Of a stretch of DNA of 64,000 nucleotides, positions 12 through 8,198 are shown in pieces (positions within the stretch are counted from its first letter, which is position 1; each line of letters starts with the position of its first letter). The stretch comes from Ferrovibrio sp. MS7. GTDB taxonomy: Bacteria; Pseudomonadota; Alphaproteobacteria; Ferrovibrionales; Ferrovibrionaceae. Made by a program: the position numbers and the translations under genes. The notes under the pieces were generated by a model. That model saw only the letters and a program-made list of their open reading frames with translations, was not told the DNA's origin and did not search any database. Location of the stretch: NCBI RefSeq assembly GCF_038404985.1, contig NZ_JBBKBA010000002.1:62001-126000 (forward strand), given 5' to 3'.

Positions 12-1418
12 TCAGATGGAGAAAATCTTGCCCGGATTCATCAGGTTATCGGGATCCAGGGCCTTTTTGATCGAGCGCATCACGCTCACCGCCTCGCCAT
101 GCTCGGCAATCAGGTACTTCATCTTGCCGCTGCCGATGCCATGCTCGCCGGTGCATGTGCCTTCCATGGAGAGCGCGCGCTGCACCAGGCGGGCATTGAG
201 CCGCTCGGCTTCCTCGATCTCCTTCGGGTTCGCGCGGTCGATGACAAAGGCGAGGTGAAAATTGCCATCGCCGACATGGCCGACCAGCGGCGCGATCAGG
301 AAGCTCTGCTTCAGGTCTTCCTTGGTTTCGAGGATGCAATCCGCCAGCCGCGAGATCGGCACGCAGACATCGGTGGCCCAGATTTCGCAGCCCGGCCGCA
401 ACGACTTCGCCGCATAGGCGGCATCATGCCGCGCCTGCCACAGCCGCGCGCGTTCCTCGGGCTTGGTGGTCCAGGAAAAATTCTGCCCGCCATTATCGGC
501 GGCGATGGCCTGCACCAGTTCGGCCTGTTCCTGGGTGCCGGCCTCGGTGCCATGGAATTCCAGGAACAGAGTATCCTTCACCGGCATGTCGTATTTGGCA
601 TAGCGGTTGATGGCATCGACATGCAGGTCGTCGAGCAGTTCGATCCGCGCCACCGGAATGCCGCTCTGGATGGTCGCGATCACGGTCTTGATCGCGCCTT
701 CCAGGCTATCGAAAGCGCAAACCGCCGAGGTGATCGATTCCGGGATGCCATAGAGCTTCAGTGTGATCTCGGTGATGATGCCGAGCGTGCCTTCCGAACC
801 GACGAAAAGCCGCGTCAGGTCATAACCGGCGGCGGATTTCTTGGCGCGCTTCGAGGTACGGATGATGCGGCCATCGGCCAGCACCACGGTCAGCGCCAGC
901 ACATTCTCGCGCATGGTGCCGTAGCGCACCGCGTTGGTGCCGCTGGCCCGCGTCGAGACCATGCCGCCAATCGAGGCATTGGCACCCGGATCAATCGGGA
1001 AGAACAGGCCGGTATCGCGCAGGTATTCATTGAGCTGCTTGCGCGTCACGCCCGGCTGCACCACCACATCCAAGTCCTCGGCGTTGACGCGGAGGATCTT
1101 GTTCATCTGCATCACGTCGAGGCTCAAGCCGCCCTGGAGCGCACCGACATGGCCTTCCAGCGAGGTGCCGGCGCCATAGGGGATGATCGGCATGCCATGG
1201 GCGGCGCAGATCTTCACGATCTCGGCCACTTCCTCGGTGCTCTGGGCGAAGGCGACGGCATCGGGAAGCTGCGGCTGGTGCCAGCTCTCGTCCTTGCCAT
1301 GCTGCTCGCGGATCGCCTGGCCGGTGCTGAGGCGGTCGCCCAGAAGTTGCTTGAGCGCCGCAATTGCCGCTTCGGTGGCGGTGGCGGACAGACGGGGGGC
1401 AGCGGCGGTGGCAGCCAT
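12..1418 (-). CDS. FAD-linked oxidase, D-lactate dehydrogenase (cytochrome)/GlcD type
   Basis: A 468-residue flavoprotein of the vanillyl-alcohol oxidase fold that should oxidise D-lactate, glycolate or another D-2-hydroxy acid to the keto acid. The N-terminal half carries the PCMH FAD-binding domain, with the motif PYGAGTSLEGH near residue 80 and GGMVSTRASGTNAVRYG near residue 152. The C-terminal half has the metal- and substrate-binding motifs GHVGDGNFH and GEHGIG, and ends with NPGKI as in GlcD and LDHD. Length fits the LDHD group (about 460 residues). The start is an ATG with AAGGAA about nine bases upstream. It diverges from the helicase gene across about 100 bp. The glcE-glcF genes near 63 kb encode the other subunits of glycolate oxidase, but this gene is not contiguous with them, so a stand-alone D-lactate dehydrogenase is as likely. 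Substrate is unproven. Confidence 0.9.
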   Translation of the reverse strand: MAATAAAPRLSATATEAAIAALKQLLGDRLSTGQAIREQHGKDESWHQPQLPDAVAFAQSTEEVAEIVKICAAHGMPIIPYGAGTSLEGHVGALQGGLSLDVMQMNKILRVNAEDLDVVVQPGVTRKQLNEYLRDTGLFFPIDPGANASIGGMVSTRASGTNAVRYGTMRENVLALTVVLADGRIIRTSKRAKKSAAGYDLTRLFVGSEGTLGIITEITLKLYGIPESITSAVCAFDSLEGAIKTVIATIQSGIPVARIELLDDLHVDAINRYAKYDMPVKDTLFLEFHGTEAGTQEQAELVQAIAADNGGQNFSWTTKPEERARLWQARHDAAYAAKSLRPGCEIWATDVCVPISRLADCILETKEDLKQSFLIAPLVGHVGDGNFHLAFVIDRANPKEIEEAERLNARLVQRALSMEGTCTGEHGIGSGKMKYLIAEHGEAVSVMRSIKKALDPDNLMNPGKIFSI

Positions 1419-1522
1419 GGGCGGGTTTCCTTCCGGTGGTTGCCCTAAGTCGTAGCGCGGTGACGGATTTATGGCAATGCCAGCGGTGGTCAGGCGGGGG
1501 GCCTTGGGCTATGTAACCCGCT

Positions 1523-3829: not shown

Positions 3830-4737
3830 TGCCGTCTTTCTGGTTCGTCGAGATCGAACTGCCTTTCGCGGCCTTGGCGCCGTTCGAGGAGCTGCTCGGC
3901 GAAACCGAGGCGGTGGCGGTGAGTTCCTACGAAGTCGCGCCCCTGCCCGATCCGGACCTGGCGCCCTGGCGATTCCAGGTGCTGTTCGATGCGCCACCCG
4001 ATGAAGCGGCCTGGCGTCAGCGCCTCAGTGCCATTGCTGCCGCAATGGGTCATGCCGAGGCGCCAGTCTATGCCGGCAAGCTGCCGGACCAGGATTGGGT
4101 GCGCCATACCAACAAGCTGAATGCGCCGGTGCAGGCCGGACGCTTTTTCCTTTATGGCGCCCATGATGCCGGCAAAGCCCCACCGGGCAGCCATAGCCTG
4201 CTGCTGGATGCCGGCCTGGCTTTCGGCACCGGCCGGGCGCCCTCGACATTTGGCTGCCTGCAGGCCATCGACCATATCGCGCGCCGCAAACGCTTGAATT
4301 GCGTGCTGGATCTCGGCACCGGCTCGGGCGTGCTGGCGATGGCGGCGGCGAAAGCCGGCGCGCGCCAGATCTGGGCCGCCGATATCGATCCGGTAGCGGT
4401 GCAGGTGGCAGCCGATAACGTGGCCCTGAACGGCCTGCGCGGCCGCGTGCATTGCCTGGTGGCGCATAAGCCGCGTGACCCGAAGCTGCCGGGGCCGTTC
4501 GATCTGGTGGTGGCGAATATCCTGGCCGGCCCGCTCTGCGCCATGGCGGCGGGCCTTGCATCACAGGTAGCGCCAGGCGGCTACCTGATTCTCTCCGGGC
4601 TGCTGGCCCGCGAGGAGCGCCGGGTGAAGGCGCATTACATCGCGCAGGGACTGAACTTCACCGCGCGCCTGCCGCGTGAAGGCTGGCACACCCTGGTATT
4701 CCGCCGGGATGCGCCAGCCCTGATCGCGCTGCGTTAG
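3826..4737 (+). CDS. prmA: ribosomal protein L11 methyltransferase
   Basis: A 303-residue SAM-dependent methyltransferase expected to trimethylate lysines and the N-terminus of ribosomal protein L11. The N-terminal third is the L11-recognition domain. The class I Rossmann fold follows, with motif I LDLGTGSGVLAMAAAKAGA near residue 160, the acidic loop AADIDPVAV, and motif IV NILAGPL in place of the usual NILA(N/G)PL. The family length is about 290-310. The start ATG overlaps the uvrD stop. The TAG stop at 4735-4737 abuts the stop of the convergent DUF1127 gene with no intervening base, so there is no room for a separate terminator. Confidence 0.93.
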   Translation: MMPSFWFVEIELPFAALAPFEELLGETEAVAVSSYEVAPLPDPDLAPWRFQVLFDAPPDEAAWRQRLSAIAAAMGHAEAPVYAGKLPDQDWVRHTNKLNAPVQAGRFFLYGAHDAGKAPPGSHSLLLDAGLAFGTGRAPSTFGCLQAIDHIARRKRLNCVLDLGTGSGVLAMAAAKAGARQIWAADIDPVAVQVAADNVALNGLRGRVHCLVAHKPRDPKLPGPFDLVVANILAGPLCAMAAGLASQVAPGGYLILSGLLAREERRVKAHYIAQGLNFTARLPREGWHTLVFRRDAPALIALR

Positions 4738-5298
4738 TTAGGCAACGACCTTGCGGCCGAGCACCTGAACCTTCGCAATGCCGGCATTCTCGTTTGCCGG
4801 CTTTTCGCTGGCCGGAACGTCGAGCTGCGGCGCATGCGGGCGATAGATGTTGCCCATCACCGCGGCCGGGATTTCCGACCGGCTCAGGCCCATGTCGTAG
4901 AGCGTACGATCATCCAGGCCATAGAGTTCGGCCATCGCCGCCTGACGGGCGAGATAGGCCTTGACCCGCCGGGTCACCGGCTCGGCCAGGCGCTCGATGA
5001 AGCTCACCACCTGATAGATCGCCTCAGCGAAGGCTTCGGCGCGCTGGTAGCGCACATCGGCCTCGAGCTGGCGCAGGGTATATTCCTGGCGCACCGCCGT
5101 GGTCACCGCCGGGGGCTCGGCGGCAAAGCTCTGCCAGCCGCGCTTGACGGCGCCGGCCAGGGTGATCAGGCCCGAGGCAATCGCCTGGGCGCGCAGCCGA
5201 CGGGCATAGGCTTCGGCCTCCACCGCCGAAAGCTGACGCGCGTCGCGCAGCTCACTAAGCAGCGAGGTGGTTTGAATCTGGGTACCGATGTCGCTCAT
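4738..5298 (-). CDS. DUF1127 domain protein with long N-terminal extension
   Basis: A 186-residue protein with a C-terminal DUF1127 (YjiS-like) domain at about 125-160, marked by ELYGLDDRTLYDMGLSRSEI. DUF1127 proteins are usually 45-80 residues and Arg-rich; some are implicated in RNA turnover, stress and phosphate or carbon responses. The start is the ATG at 5298 with GGAGAG about six bases upstream; a longer in-frame extension to 5430 runs through promoter-like DNA and is rejected. The N-terminal motif LSAVEAEAYARRLRA recurs in the next gene upstream on this strand (LSTVEVEAEARRLRA), so the two are paralogues by duplication. It has no predicted signal peptide or membrane segment. A promoter candidate shared with the paralogue lies 64-91 bases upstream of the start. 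Function unknown. Confidence 0.8.
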   Translation of the reverse strand: MSDIGTQIQTTSLLSELRDARQLSAVEAEAYARRLRAQAIASGLITLAGAVKRGWQSFAAEPPAVTTAVRQEYTLRQLEADVRYQRAEAFAEAIYQVVSFIERLAEPVTRRVKAYLARQAAMAELYGLDDRTLYDMGLSRSEIPAAVMGNIYRPHAPQLDVPASEKPANENAGIAKVQVLGRKVVA

Positions 5299-5361
5299 GA
5301 CTTCTCTCCATTGGCGAGACGGAGCCGCTCTCGAATCCGCTCCCGCCCTGTCTCGCCATCC

Positions 5362-5389
5362 ATATTGCAGTGCAACATTACATTTGCAA
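5362..5389 (-). promoter_or_regulatory. candidate promoter of the first DUF1127 gene
   Basis: Read on the minus strand: TTGCAA, 16 bases, then CAATAT, with the -10 region TGCACTGCAATAT. The other DUF1127 gene has TTGTTG, 16 bases, CAATAT with TGCAGCGCAATAT. The two -10 regions agree at 11 of 13 positions and lie at similar distances from their starts. The implied 5' leader is about 55-60 bases. The match between the pair is seen directly; promoter function is inferred. Confidence 0.5.
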
Positions 5390-5390
5390 G

Positions 5391-5425
5391 AGAGAAAAAT
5401 TAAATATTCGAGAGAAAAATTCTCT
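5391..5425. repeat. direct repeat AGAGAAAAAT and small palindrome
   Basis: AGAGAAAAAT occurs at 5391 and again at 5411, exactly 20 bases apart and each followed by T. The second copy is part of the palindrome AGAGAA-AAA-TTCTCT (5411-5425). The block lies just upstream of the -35 box of the first DUF1127 gene, in a conspicuously AT-rich island of an otherwise high-GC window. A regulator-binding site is possible; no family is recognised. Confidence 0.4.
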
Positions 5426-5510
5426 GCCACTTAAATCACCAGAAATGTTCGAAAAATTAGCACTCGCTTGAATGAAATACAGTCACTGAAATACTTTGTT
5501 GCAGATGCGA

Positions 5511-5566
5511 AAAAGCCGGACCGATCTGTTACCGGAAACTTCCGATTCAGACCTGGCCCGGCTTTC
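5511..5566 (-). terminator. intrinsic terminator-like hairpin after the second DUF1127 gene
   Basis: Arms AAAGCCGG (5512-5519) and CCGGCTTT (5558-5565) pair perfectly over 8 bp around a 38-base loop that holds a small nested hairpin (CGGA/TCCG). On the minus strand the second arm reads CCGGCTTTTTC, giving the U-tract expected of a Rho-independent terminator for the gene ending at 5671. The long loop lowers confidence. The transcript would have a 3' region of about 150 bases. Confidence 0.5.
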
Positions 5567-5670
5567 GGGGAGGAACTCAACTTACTCGGACTAGACGAAT
5601 ACTGAGACTGTACTTCGACTTTTACTTACTGACTGCTACTGGCTACTGGACTGCTACTGGCCGTGCGAGC
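5566..5670 (-). other. repetitive 3' untranslated region of DUF1127 mRNA, candidate sRNA
   Basis: Between the stop of the second DUF1127 gene and its terminator the minus strand holds short direct repeats: CAGTAGCAGT, CCAGTAGC, CAGTAGCAGT, then CAGTAAGTAAAAGT. Further on comes TTCCTCCCCG, a CCUCC-type anti-Shine-Dalgarno sequence. No open reading frame is supported. In Rhodobacter the DUF1127 gene ccaF1 is co-transcribed with downstream CcsR sRNAs that expose CCUCC loops. The similarity here is only in arrangement and that short motif, so an sRNA is an inference. Confidence 0.35.
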
Positions 5671-6033
5671 TTAGGCAGCCTGGCGCGGCACCAGACGCAC
5701 CACCTCGGCCGTCACGGTGGCATTCTCGTTGGAAGCCAGGGCGGGACGGTAGATGGAGCCGGCGACGGCGGCGGGGATCTGCGAGCGGGTCAGGCCGATG
5801 TCACGCAGCATGGCGTCATCAAGGCCGTAGAGTTCGTCGATGGCCTTCTGCTCGGCACGCCAGGAATTCAGCTTGCCAAACAAGGCCTTGATCCCCTCCA
5901 GCGCCTTCGGAGCGAGCTGGGCGACAGCCACGGCGCGCAGGCGGCGCGCTTCGGCTTCCACCTCGACGGTGCTGAGCGGAGCCATCCGCGCACCATAGGC
6001 AAAAGCATTGGCTTCGTTAGCGGGGGTAAACAT
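5671..6033 (-). CDS. DUF1127 domain protein, paralogue of the neighbouring gene
   Basis: A 120-residue protein with the C-terminal DUF1127 core AIDELYGLDDAMLRDIGL and TRSQIPAAVAGSIYRP. It shares both the N-terminal LS.VE.EA.ARRLRA motif and the IPAAV.G.IYRP tail with the gene at 4738-5298, but lacks most of that gene's middle segment. Two ATG codons lie six bases apart (6039 and 6033). AGGAG directly abuts the first, leaving no spacing, whereas it is six bases from the second, so 6033 is preferred. The neighbour's promoter-like motif recurs upstream at 6082-6109. Predicted soluble, cytoplasmic. Function unknown; an RNA-related regulatory role is plausible for the family. Confidence 0.8.
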   Translation of the reverse strand: MFTPANEANAFAYGARMAPLSTVEVEAEARRLRAVAVAQLAPKALEGIKALFGKLNSWRAEQKAIDELYGLDDAMLRDIGLTRSQIPAAVAGSIYRPALASNENATVTAEVVRLVPRQAA

Positions 6034-6081
6034 TTTCATCTCCTAAGTGGTTCGGCCGGCTCGGTGCCGGTCACGGGAGCA

Positions 6082-6109
6082 ATATTGCGCTGCACCCTAG
6101 ATTCAACAA
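6082..6109 (-). promoter_or_regulatory. candidate promoter of the second DUF1127 gene
   Basis: On the minus strand: TTGTTG, 16-base spacer, CAATAT, with TGCAGCGCAATAT at the -10 region, nearly identical to the element before the paralogue (5362-5389). The palindrome GCAATATTGC (6079-6088) overlaps the -10 box. The leader would be about 40-45 bases. Inferred from the shared sequence. Confidence 0.5.
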
Positions 6110-6212
6110 TGGCTTATATCTGAGTGCTGACTTGCAAAAAACGCATAGGTCGAGACGGGGCTGGATGAATGGCTGTTAACGGAATAAACATAATCGCTTA
6201 GAGGACCCCGCC

Positions 6213-8198
6213 ATGAACGCACCCCTGCCTGATCTCGCCGCCCTGCCCGCCGCGCTGGCTGCCCATCTGCGCGGCATTGCCGCCGCCCCGGCGCCGCTGG
6301 GGCGTTTTCCCGGCCTGAGCCTGCTGCCGCATGACTCGTCCCTGGCGCCCGGCCAGGCTGAATTGCTGGTGGCGCGGCTGGCCGAACGCTATCAAGCCGC
6401 CATCGAGAACCGCGCCGCCGTGGCCGAGCGTCTGCAAGCCTTGCGCGGCGAACTGGCCCGGCGCGGCCTGCAGGGCCTGATCATCCCGCTGACCGATGAA
6501 TTCCATGGCGAATACCTGCCGCTGCGCGCCCAGCGCCTGACCTGGCTCACCGGCTTCACCGGCTCCGCCGGCCTCTGCATCGTGCTGCCGGAACGCGCCG
6601 GCCTGTGGAGCGATGGCCGCTATACGCTGCAATTGCGCCAGCAGGTCGACGCAACGCTGTTCGAACTGCTGCACATCACCGACCAGCCGCCGACCGAATG
6701 GCTTAAGACCGCGCTGAAGCCGGGCGACAAGCTCGGCTACGATGCCTGGCTGCATACCGAGGATGCGCTGCGGCGCTTCGCTGCCGTGGCCCAGGCCGCC
6801 AAGGCGGAAGCGGTGGCCGTGGAAGGCAACCCCATCGACGCGGTGTGGAGCGACCAGCCGCCGCCGCCGCTGGCGCCTGTGGTGCCGCACGGCATGGCCC
6901 ATGCCGGTCGCGCTTCATCAGAGAAACGCGCCGAGATCGCCGCCAGGCTGGCACAGGACGGCATCGATGCCGTGCTGATCACGCTGCCGGAATCGATTGC
7001 CTGGCTGCTCAATATTCGCGGCGGCGATGTGAAGCACACGCCCTTTGCGCTGAGCATGGCGCTGCTGCGCCGGGATGCCAGCCTGGACCTGTTCATCGAC
7101 ACGCGTAAGCTGGCGCCGGAAACCCCGGCGCATCTCGGGCCCGATGTGCGGCTGCATGCGCCCGATGCCTTGGCGGCGGCACTGGACGCACTCGGCAAGG
7201 CAAAGCAGACCGTGCAGGTCGATCCCGCCACCGCAGGCGCCTGGCCGATCCGCCGCCTGGAAGCCGCCGGCGCCGTGCTGAAGCGCGCCGACGATCCCTG
7301 CCTGCTGCCCAAGGCCTGCAAGAACGCGGTGGAGCTGGATGGTATCCGTAACGCGCACTTACGCGATGGTGCCGCCGTCAGCCGCTTCCTCGCCTGGCTG
7401 GCGCGCGAGGCGCCGAAGGGAGGTATCGACGAATTGCAGGCCCAGGCACAGCTCGAAGCCTGCCGCCGGCTCGACAATTCCTTGCGCGACCTGTCTTTCA
7501 CCTCGATTTCCGGCGCCGGCCCGAATGGCGCCGTGGTGCATTACCGTGCCACCGAGGAAACCAACCGCAAATTGGAAACCGGCAATCTCTACCTGATCGA
7601 TTCCGGCGGCCAGTATCCCGACGGCACCACCGACATCACCCGCACCATCGCCATCGGCACGCCGACGCAGGAAATGCGCGAAGCCTTCACCCGCGTGCTG
7701 AAAGGCCATATCGCCATTGCCCGCGCCCGCTTTCCCGATGGCACTGCCGGGCAGCAGCTTGATGCCCTGGCGCGCTATGCGCTGTGGCAGGCTGGCCTCG
7801 ATTACGACCACGGCACCGGCCATGGCGTCGGCGCCTATCTCTCGGTGCATGAAGGCCCGCACCGCATTTCCAAGGCCGGCACGCCGGTGCCGCTGAAGCC
7901 CGGCATGATCGTTTCCAACGAGCCCGGCTACTACAAGACCGGTGCCTTCGGCATCCGCATCGAGAATCTCGTGGCGGTGCGCCAGGAAGTCGAGAAAGCC
8001 GAGAATGGCAAGGCCTGGCACGGTTTCGAGACCCTGACCAAGGCGCCGATCGACCGCAACCTGATCGAAACCGCTTTGCTGACGCGCGAAGAGATCGACT
8101 GGGTGAACGCCTATCACGCCGAGGTACGCCGCGACATCGGCCCGCGCGTCGATGACGACACCCGGCGCTGGCTCGAAAGCGCGACAGCGGCGGTTTAG
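6213..8198 (+). CDS. Xaa-Pro aminopeptidase (M24B), long form
   Basis: A 661-residue metallopeptidase that removes N-terminal residues preceding proline. It has three parts like the eukaryotic APP1 type: two creatinase-like N-terminal domains (about 60-200 and 225-365) and a C-terminal pita-bread catalytic domain. Metal ligands are recognisable in DSGGQYPDGTTDITRT (two Asp), GTGHGVGAYLSVHEGP (His), SNEPGYYKTGAFGIRIEN (both Glu). AGAGGA lies about nine bases before the ATG. Longer than the roughly 440-residue E. coli PepP. It is monocistronic, divergent from the DUF1127 gene, and ends two bases from the convergent exonuclease gene. Confidence 0.92.
   Translation: MNAPLPDLAALPAALAAHLRGIAAAPAPLGRFPGLSLLPHDSSLAPGQAELLVARLAERYQAAIENRAAVAERLQALRGELARRGLQGLIIPLTDEFHGEYLPLRAQRLTWLTGFTGSAGLCIVLPERAGLWSDGRYTLQLRQQVDATLFELLHITDQPPTEWLKTALKPGDKLGYDAWLHTEDALRRFAAVAQAAKAEAVAVEGNPIDAVWSDQPPPPLAPVVPHGMAHAGRASSEKRAEIAARLAQDGIDAVLITLPESIAWLLNIRGGDVKHTPFALSMALLRRDASLDLFIDTRKLAPETPAHLGPDVRLHAPDALAAALDALGKAKQTVQVDPATAGAWPIRRLEAAGAVLKRADDPCLLPKACKNAVELDGIRNAHLRDGAAVSRFLAWLAREAPKGGIDELQAQAQLEACRRLDNSLRDLSFTSISGAGPNGAVVHYRATEETNRKLETGNLYLIDSGGQYPDGTTDITRTIAIGTPTQEMREAFTRVLKGHIAIARARFPDGTAGQQLDALARYALWQAGLDYDHGTGHGVGAYLSVHEGPHRISKAGTPVPLKPGMIVSNEPGYYKTGAFGIRIENLVAVRQEVEKAENGKAWHGFETLTKAPIDRNLIETALLTREEIDWVNAYHAEVRRDIGPRVDDDTRRWLESATAAV

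Follow-up and report, generated by a model that had tools for sequence, protein, structure and literature searches.

Extended DUF1127 genes in tandem in Ferrovibrio: putative members of the PhaR regulon

Which regulator would hold two adjacent DUF1127 genes under the same promoter element, and what would their products do? The question is raised by a locus of the alphaproteobacterium Ferrovibrio sp. MS7, contained in a window of 64,000 nucleotides (C2:62001-126000 of the 4.58-Mb genome; positions given below are those of this window), where gene 1 lies downstream of gene 2, in tandem (Table 1). A preliminary description of the stretch had presented the two as paralogues of 186 and 120 amino acids, each with an N-terminal LS.VE.EA.ARRLRA motif and a C-terminal DUF1127 core; the coordinates of the open reading frames (ORFs), the Pfam scores and the comparison of the two proteins (45% identity across 78 residues and a further block of 19 residues at the motif) agree with this picture, and gene 2 has in addition an alternative ATG two codons further upstream, which would yield 122 residues. 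The answer proposed here, to which a probability of about 0.72 is assigned as a whole, is that the two genes are part of the PhaR regulon, and thus of the control of polyhydroxybutyrate (PHB) storage, and that it encodes CcaF1-like post-transcriptional regulators; of the parts of this proposal, PhaR control of both genes is highly probable on the evidence of the operators, and a CcaF1-like function of the proteins is tentative, with the chances somewhat against it.

The shared promoter element and its operator core

The matched elements upstream of the two genes stand exactly where they had been placed; TTG-N19-CAATAT occurs twice in the window, both times at the gene pair, against 0.16 occurrences expected (2 of 100 shuffles reach two). 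That the element has been retained before both genes is supported by the relatives: in the gene 2 upstream regions aligned from nine Ferrovibrio genomes, TTG...TGCRnYGCAATAT is kept and the flanks drift, the gap between TTG and CAATAT being 19 bases in the promoters of gene 2 and, in those of gene 1 that were measured, 19 or 20. The TGCA..GCAATAT segment, earlier taken for a -10 region, does overlap the proposed -10 but is not just that, since it contains the core of a putative PhaR operator; likewise, co-regulation of the pair by one regulator is probable, as had been suggested, but a stress sigma factor is not the best candidate for that role. TGCAnYGCA agrees with the PhaR operator described in the literature, which makes PhaR the most likely regulator and PHB or carbon storage the most likely signal; indeed, the palindromes of gene 1 and gene 2 fit the core of all three published consensus sites, namely TGCRNYGCASMA in Bradyrhizobium diazoefficiens (PMC6201568), WNWD2NYGCRNYGCRNH2WNW in Sinorhizobium meliloti (PMC12542648) and YTKNTGCRNYGCANMAR in Ralstonia eutropha (PMC12849132). 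Since the core by itself turns up often by chance, its context was tested: the significance of the sites rests on spacing, position and conservation in relatives, not on the core itself. A consensus scan for sigma-70-type promoters returned none in 4600-6300.

Gene 2 is matched in 16 of the 18 genomes of the order, and two DUF1127 genes stand in tandem in nine of ten Ferrovibrio genomes, the window's own included. A strict core lies upstream of 26 of 30 DUF1127 loci of the order (a sample of 30 out of 34 listed matches, four of the 30 from the window's own species), and in some genomes a second operator is kept 42 bp upstream.

The rest of the genome provides the company expected of a PhaR regulon. 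PhaR itself is encoded there, and a strict core is present upstream of phaR and upstream of each of two phasin genes (TGCAGTGCA at the second phasin), so that phaR and the phasins carry the same operator core as the gene pair. The sequence TTGCANTGCAA is found without mismatch at eight places, four of which precede gene 1, the gene of the PHB depolymerase PhaZ, a methylmalonyl-CoA mutase gene and a Usg-family gene, the rest being inside ORFs or ambiguous. For TGCRNYGCAAYAT, 17 occurrences were counted at 16 places, against none for the reversed pattern, a weak control in that the reversed pattern differs in composition; as read from the ORF map, nine of the 16 places are promoter-like, six lie within ORFs and one is ambiguous. 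Four of the nine belong to gene 1, gene 2 and one phasin gene (preceded by two), three precede the genes for methylmalonyl-CoA mutase, 3-oxoacid CoA-transferase A and an AAA ATPase, and the last two lie before an ABC-transporter ATPase gene and between ispDF and a dihydrouridine synthase gene. The PhaR-like site between these latter genes (L085) is G000:C1:2563761-2563773, and the dihydrouridine synthase gene beside it is, we presume, possibly of the same family as nifR. In B. diazoefficiens, nifR is repressed by PhaR and has a site (PMC6201568).

From operator fit, conservation, regulon company, domain fusion and a 3' untranslated region (3'UTR) motif, all of which are seen in the sequence, we infer PhaR binding, transcription start, RNA processing and protein function as follows. 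Without PHB, PhaR would sit on the TGCRNYGCA palindrome over the proposed -10 of each gene and block RNA polymerase; once PHB granules form, it would be titrated onto them, and both genes would be released together with the phasins, the PHB depolymerase and genes of acetoacetyl-CoA and propionyl-CoA metabolism. Both genes are expected to rise with PHB because operators over the proposed -10 fit repression and because PHB titrates PhaR in those species where this has been studied. The proteins, an RSP_7527-type helix fused to a DUF1127 core, would be RNA-associated and tune the carbon-storage state post-transcriptionally, and from the 3'UTR of gene 2 an anti-Shine-Dalgarno small RNA (sRNA) would be set free out of the same transcript.

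The operator before DUF1127 genes of the Alphaproteobacteria

Of 80 named DUF1127 loci picked for their similarity to gene 2, 33 have a strict core in the 500 bp upstream of the DUF1127 core, compared with 1-7 for permuted half-site palindromes; removal of the five loci of this order (L094, L095, L099, L104 and L115, all operator-positive) leaves 28 of 75, compared with 1-6. One of the 33 (L143) has its sole core inside coding sequence, close to the DUF1127 core, and when hits inside coding sequence are left out the counts become 32/80 (permuted 0-6) or 27/75. An even class-wide sample gave a strict core at 12 of 29 loci, against 0-1 for the permuted palindromes (30 loci were drawn and the window's own, L001, was dropped; L191, from this order, has no site). 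With a 300-bp limit the core was found at 31 of 80 DUF1127 loci against 9 of 319, and at 16 of 39 after dereplication, a test that is favoured by the start codons of the operator-positive loci having been chosen downstream of the operator; the 33/80, 28/75 and 12/29 counts do not depend on the chosen start codons in that way.

Nor is the core equally frequent before unrelated genes, the outcome that the preliminary description had named as speaking against it: over the 80 loci there are 1.156 cores per kb upstream of DUF1127, compared with 0.138 per kb in the remaining intergenic DNA and 0.079 per kb within coding DNA, and the motif is also found before PHB-metabolism genes, as PhaR control predicts. 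The operator also goes with the N-terminal module, being present at 15 of the 16 proteins (among the 80) that match a hidden Markov model (HMM) of the module at E<=1; five of these 15 come from this order, and two of the five, L094 and L095, from Ferrovibrio, the genus of the HMM training set. Proteins with a KPFW-like tail (loose pattern) have the operator in none of seven cases.

The sRNA family MH_s15 was considered for the window and rejected as an sRNA here, the sub-threshold Rfam match covering the operator palindrome. In the Mesorhizobium genome behind L118, an MH_s15 (RF02880) match at L207:1501-1774 covers TATATTGCACTGCAGTATG, a palindrome resembling a PhaR site, which lies ~80 bp ahead of an ORF that we take to be a membrane acyltransferase; RF02880 was matched in one of the two Mesorhizobium genomes searched. 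The conserved stem of the MH_s15 family may be a DNA operator rather than an RNA structure.

The fused proteins and the 3'UTR of gene 2

The extended form of the proteins, not recognised in the preliminary description, is recognisable: the N-terminus of gene 2 passes the NCBI cut-off for the RSP_7527 family (NF046098), which gene 1 fails, and both proteins exceed the Pfam gathering cut-off that defines DUF1127 membership (Table 1). RSP_7527 is matched at E<=0.01 by nine of 23 aligned proteins, gene 2 among them. The module HMM, trained on Ferrovibrio proteins with gene 1 in the training set, finds the module at residues 23-51 of gene 1 and a weak second copy at 79-95 (independent E-value 0.15), which may explain part of the extra length of this protein. 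The AlphaFold model of gene 2, of moderate confidence (mean pLDDT 70.6, pTM 0.38), consists of a long helix (22-69) that continues into the DUF1127 region and of short helices. A sequence search of the PDB gave a sole match at E 0.058, which is not meaningful, and PHROGs a single weak match for gene 1 (E 0.0016) and none at E<=0.1 for gene 2. The tails of the two proteins carry an NEN motif (N102, E103, N104), which shows little or no variation among 12 aligned sequences and falls outside the DUF1127 model.

Downstream of gene 2, UUCCUCCC or CUCCUCCC motifs are found in 9/9 Ferrovibrio genomes examined, out of ten (G005, of the window's species, was not among the nine, and in G012 the bases that directly follow the motif are masked). 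Over 107 windows downstream of DUF1127 genes (79 of the 80 similarity loci and 28 of the 29 class loci, L191 being left out), [CT]TCCTCCC is present on the sense strand in nine and on the antisense strand in none, and TCCTCCC, found in 17, ranks first of 21 anagrams (next 7); [CT]TCCTCCC accompanies 7 of 43 loci with the operator and 2 of 64 without it (p 0.029). In the comparison with the cuckoo, CcsR and ar14 sRNAs, the CCUCCUCCC motif was sought beside DUF1127, and UUCCUCCCC was found in the window and CUCCUCCC in some other Ferrovibrio; CcsR1 and ar14 gave no match at E<=5 in 4500-6500. The strong terminator-like hairpin after gene 2 was not listed by a simple consensus scan.

Some further features of the locus may be recorded here. 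The start of the gene 2 3'UTR (~5600-5660) is of low complexity and consists of a run of units resembling CAGTAGC and AGTA, and similar but diverged runs follow gene 2 in G006, G008 and G010. The 5' leader of gene 1 (5299-5361) can form a strong hairpin, GGCGAGAC...GTCTCGCC (-25.9 kcal/mol), immediately before the ribosome-binding site. At its other end, gene 1 abuts a convergent methyltransferase gene, presumably prmA-like, the stop codons meeting at 4737/4738, so that gene 1 is left without an intergenic 3' region of its own. In a genome of the class sample (G089, locus L178) a DUF1127 gene is followed by four tandem CcsR1-like matches (1059-1465, minus strand), overlapped by ar14-like ones, all below the gathering score; a PhaR-like site ~225 bp upstream may belong to another gene.

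Table 1. Features of the gene pair and its surroundings (window positions; cut-offs in brackets)
Feature	Position	Strand	Description
Gene 1	4738-5298	minus	186 aa, ATG at 5298; RSP_7527-like N-terminal module, then DUF1127 core
DUF1127 core, gene 1	4870-4971	minus	Residues 110-143; Pfam PF06568, 28.7 bits (gathering cut-off 23.3)
RSP_7527-like module, gene 1	5110-5226	minus	Residues 25-63; NF046098, 19.2 bits, under the NCBI cut-off (26)
Predicted promoter, gene 1	5362-5389	minus	TTGCAA-N16-CAATAT, TTGCAAATGTAATGTTGCACTGCAATAT
Putative PhaR operator core, gene 1	5366-5374	minus	TGCACTGCA; fits TGCRNYGCA
Terminator-like hairpin and U-run after gene 2	5510-5566	minus	Predicted fold; 3'UTR z-score -3.71
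Anti-Shine-Dalgarno-like motif	5567-5575	minus	UUCCUCCCC; 3'UTR of gene 2, just before the terminator-like hairpin
Gene 2	5671-6033	minus	120 aa; RSP_7527 module, then DUF1127 core
DUF1127 core, gene 2	5776-5880	minus	Residues 52-86; Pfam PF06568, 39.7 bits (gathering cut-off 23.3)
RSP_7527 module, gene 2	5869-5979	minus	Residues 19-55; NF046098, 30.3 bits, above the NCBI cut-off (26)
Predicted promoter, gene 2	6082-6109	minus	TTGTTG-N16-CAATAT, TTGTTGAATCTAGGGTGCAGCGCAATAT
Putative PhaR operator core, gene 2	6086-6094	minus	TGCAGCGCA; fits TGCRNYGCA
Possible remnant of a second upstream operator, gene 2	6124-6141	minus	TTTTTTGCAAGTCAGCAC; intact as TTTTTTGCATTGCAGCAC in G006, G008 and G010

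Competing explanations and known systems

Several observations weigh against PhaR-controlled, CcaF1-like regulators. By itself the core TGCRNYGCA shows no enrichment in the window (10 occurrences for 16.9 expected), and neither does the S. meliloti 21-mer when two mismatches at most are allowed (50 against 63); the gene 1 site matches this 21-mer with one mismatch, the gene 2 site with two and neither without any; moreover, the third DUF1127 gene of the genome has no strict site, and four of the 30 loci of the order lack a strict core (L075 and L081 having a relaxed one only, L064 and L080 none). PhaR was found in 23 of 25 operator-positive and in 21 of 25 operator-negative genomes (50 of the 80 tested), and being nearly equal in the two groups its presence does not discriminate between them. 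As to the 3'UTR, UUCCUCCCC is unpaired in the predicted fold and lies 5' of the terminator, not in a hairpin loop, the folding prediction pairs the motif in another Ferrovibrio (L095), and the gene-pair region holds only sub-threshold Rfam matches, with no sRNA family at threshold; given the position of the motif outside the loop and the lack of an Rfam match at threshold, the 3'UTR is similar to the cuckoo/CcsR group but does not qualify for membership. Few independent cases underlie the association of motif and operator, as four of the seven come from this order, and in other species DUF1127 works by protein binding (PMC12501420).

This last point bears on what the proteins do. They might chiefly bind a sensor kinase such as PhoR and thereby tie carbon storage to the phosphate response: DUF1127 proteins of Agrobacterium tumefaciens and Escherichia coli bind PhoR, those of other species complement (PMC12501420), and phosphate-limited S. 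meliloti makes PHB (PMC12542648); however, PhoR binding has been shown for short DUF1127 proteins, and those of gene 1 and gene 2 are longer and have little net charge (+1 and +2, respectively), which leaves this explanation unlikely without making it far-fetched. Somewhat less likely again is a chief role at the PHB granule, as a phasin-like coat or scaffold, to which the phasin-like regulation, the alanine content (22% and 18% for gene 1 and gene 2), an amphipathic stretch in the gene 1 protein and the long helix in the gene 2 model would be suited; yet neither protein matches the Pfam phasin family (PF09361) at E<=1, the PDB fold search returned nothing at E<=0.001, and the DUF1127 relatives in the literature are RNA- or protein-binding regulators.

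As to the regulator, a different transcription factor recognising a TGC-n3-GCA palindrome might bind the sites in place of PhaR, since the match is to a consensus and loci with the site cannot be told from those without it by the presence of PhaR; it is, however, improbable, the sites in this genome preceding phaR, two phasin genes and phaZ, which are known PhaR targets. The least probable explanation, in which the shared element is only the promoter of a stress sigma factor (of the RpoH or extracytoplasmic function type) and the palindrome is incidental, has on its side the TTG-N19-CAATAT spacing, which is conserved at gene 2 and almost conserved at gene 1, and the RpoHI/RpoHII or RpoHII promoters of ccaF1 and RSP_7527-udsC in Rhodobacter sphaeroides (PMC10253847, PMC9779115, PMC8625941), but before many DUF1127 genes outside the order the palindrome is retained between different flanks (for instance attgcTGCAATGCAgcat) and without CAATAT, permuted palindromes are not enriched, and the same palindrome precedes PHB genes.

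DUF1127, PhaR regulons and CIN1 loci are already known. The connection of DUF1127 with PhaR appears to be new as far as an open-access search reaches, in which no link of DUF1127 to PhaR or PHB was found, co-mentions being unrelated and subscription papers and supplements lying outside its scope; the fusion of RSP_7527 with DUF1127 also appears new, from a look at the literature limited to DUF1127 and RSP_7527 listings, with no fusion-specific search. The function of DUF1127, a domain with nearly 25,000 UniProt members (PMC12501420), is disputed: in Rhodobacter it is put down to RNA binding, in Agrobacterium and E. coli to the binding of sensor kinases. A PhaR-type core before about four in ten of the sampled alphaproteobacterial DUF1127 loci suggests PHB or carbon surplus as the condition under which phenotypes might be sought. 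PHB control would gain a candidate RNA layer, and two small Rhodobacter proteins are linked by a natural fusion. It is less likely than not that throughout the class many DUF1127 genes form a post-transcriptional arm of the PHB response, retuning the translation of carbon metabolism; if so, PhaR would sense the polymer and release a DUF1127 protein, often fused to RSP_7527, and some lineages would add an anti-Shine-Dalgarno sRNA from the DUF1127 transcript; on this reading the fusion would imply that RSP_7527 and CcaF1, separate in Rhodobacter, work together.

Among known systems, the short DUF1127 proteins (the SDPs of A. tumefaciens, YjiS) share the DUF1127 core and differ in their length of 47-54 aa and in binding sensor kinases, a link to PHB not being reported in the accessible portions of the papers. 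The locus resembles the CIN1-type CcaF1-CcsR1-4 system of R. sphaeroides in that the 3'UTR of a DUF1127 gene carries a C-rich RNA motif of anti-Shine-Dalgarno type and ends in a terminator; it differs in that CcaF1 is of 71 aa, is preceded by an RpoHI/RpoHII promoter where a putative PhaR operator is found here, and is followed by four separate CcsR RNAs rather than by one single-stranded UUCCUCCCC motif. With RSP_7527-UdsC, in which the sRNA UdsC derives from the 3'UTR of the R. sphaeroides RSP_7527 mRNA (PMC9779115, PMC8625941), it shares the N-terminal module of gene 2, above the family cut-off, but here the module is fused to DUF1127, and there the promoter is of the RpoHII type. In S. meliloti, the published PhaR-repressed small gene SMc02051 (chromosome near 1,667,000) adjoins the sRNA candidate C14/NfeR1, a CCUCCUCCC sRNA; in four Rhizobiaceae genomes, the ~1.5 kb upstream of tig held neither a DUF1127-like ORF nor a CTCCTCCC motif. 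The PhaR (AniA) regulon of S. meliloti, B. diazoefficiens and R. eutropha does not name DUF1127 genes among its targets in the accessible portions of those reports, and in S. meliloti PhaR also controls an sRNA, mmgR; the likeness to it lies in the TGCRNYGCA core, in the presence of PhaR, in phasins and PHB depolymerase as co-targets, and in the two operators of some promoters, a pair of which flanks the -35 element in the phasin promoters of S. meliloti (PMC12542648).

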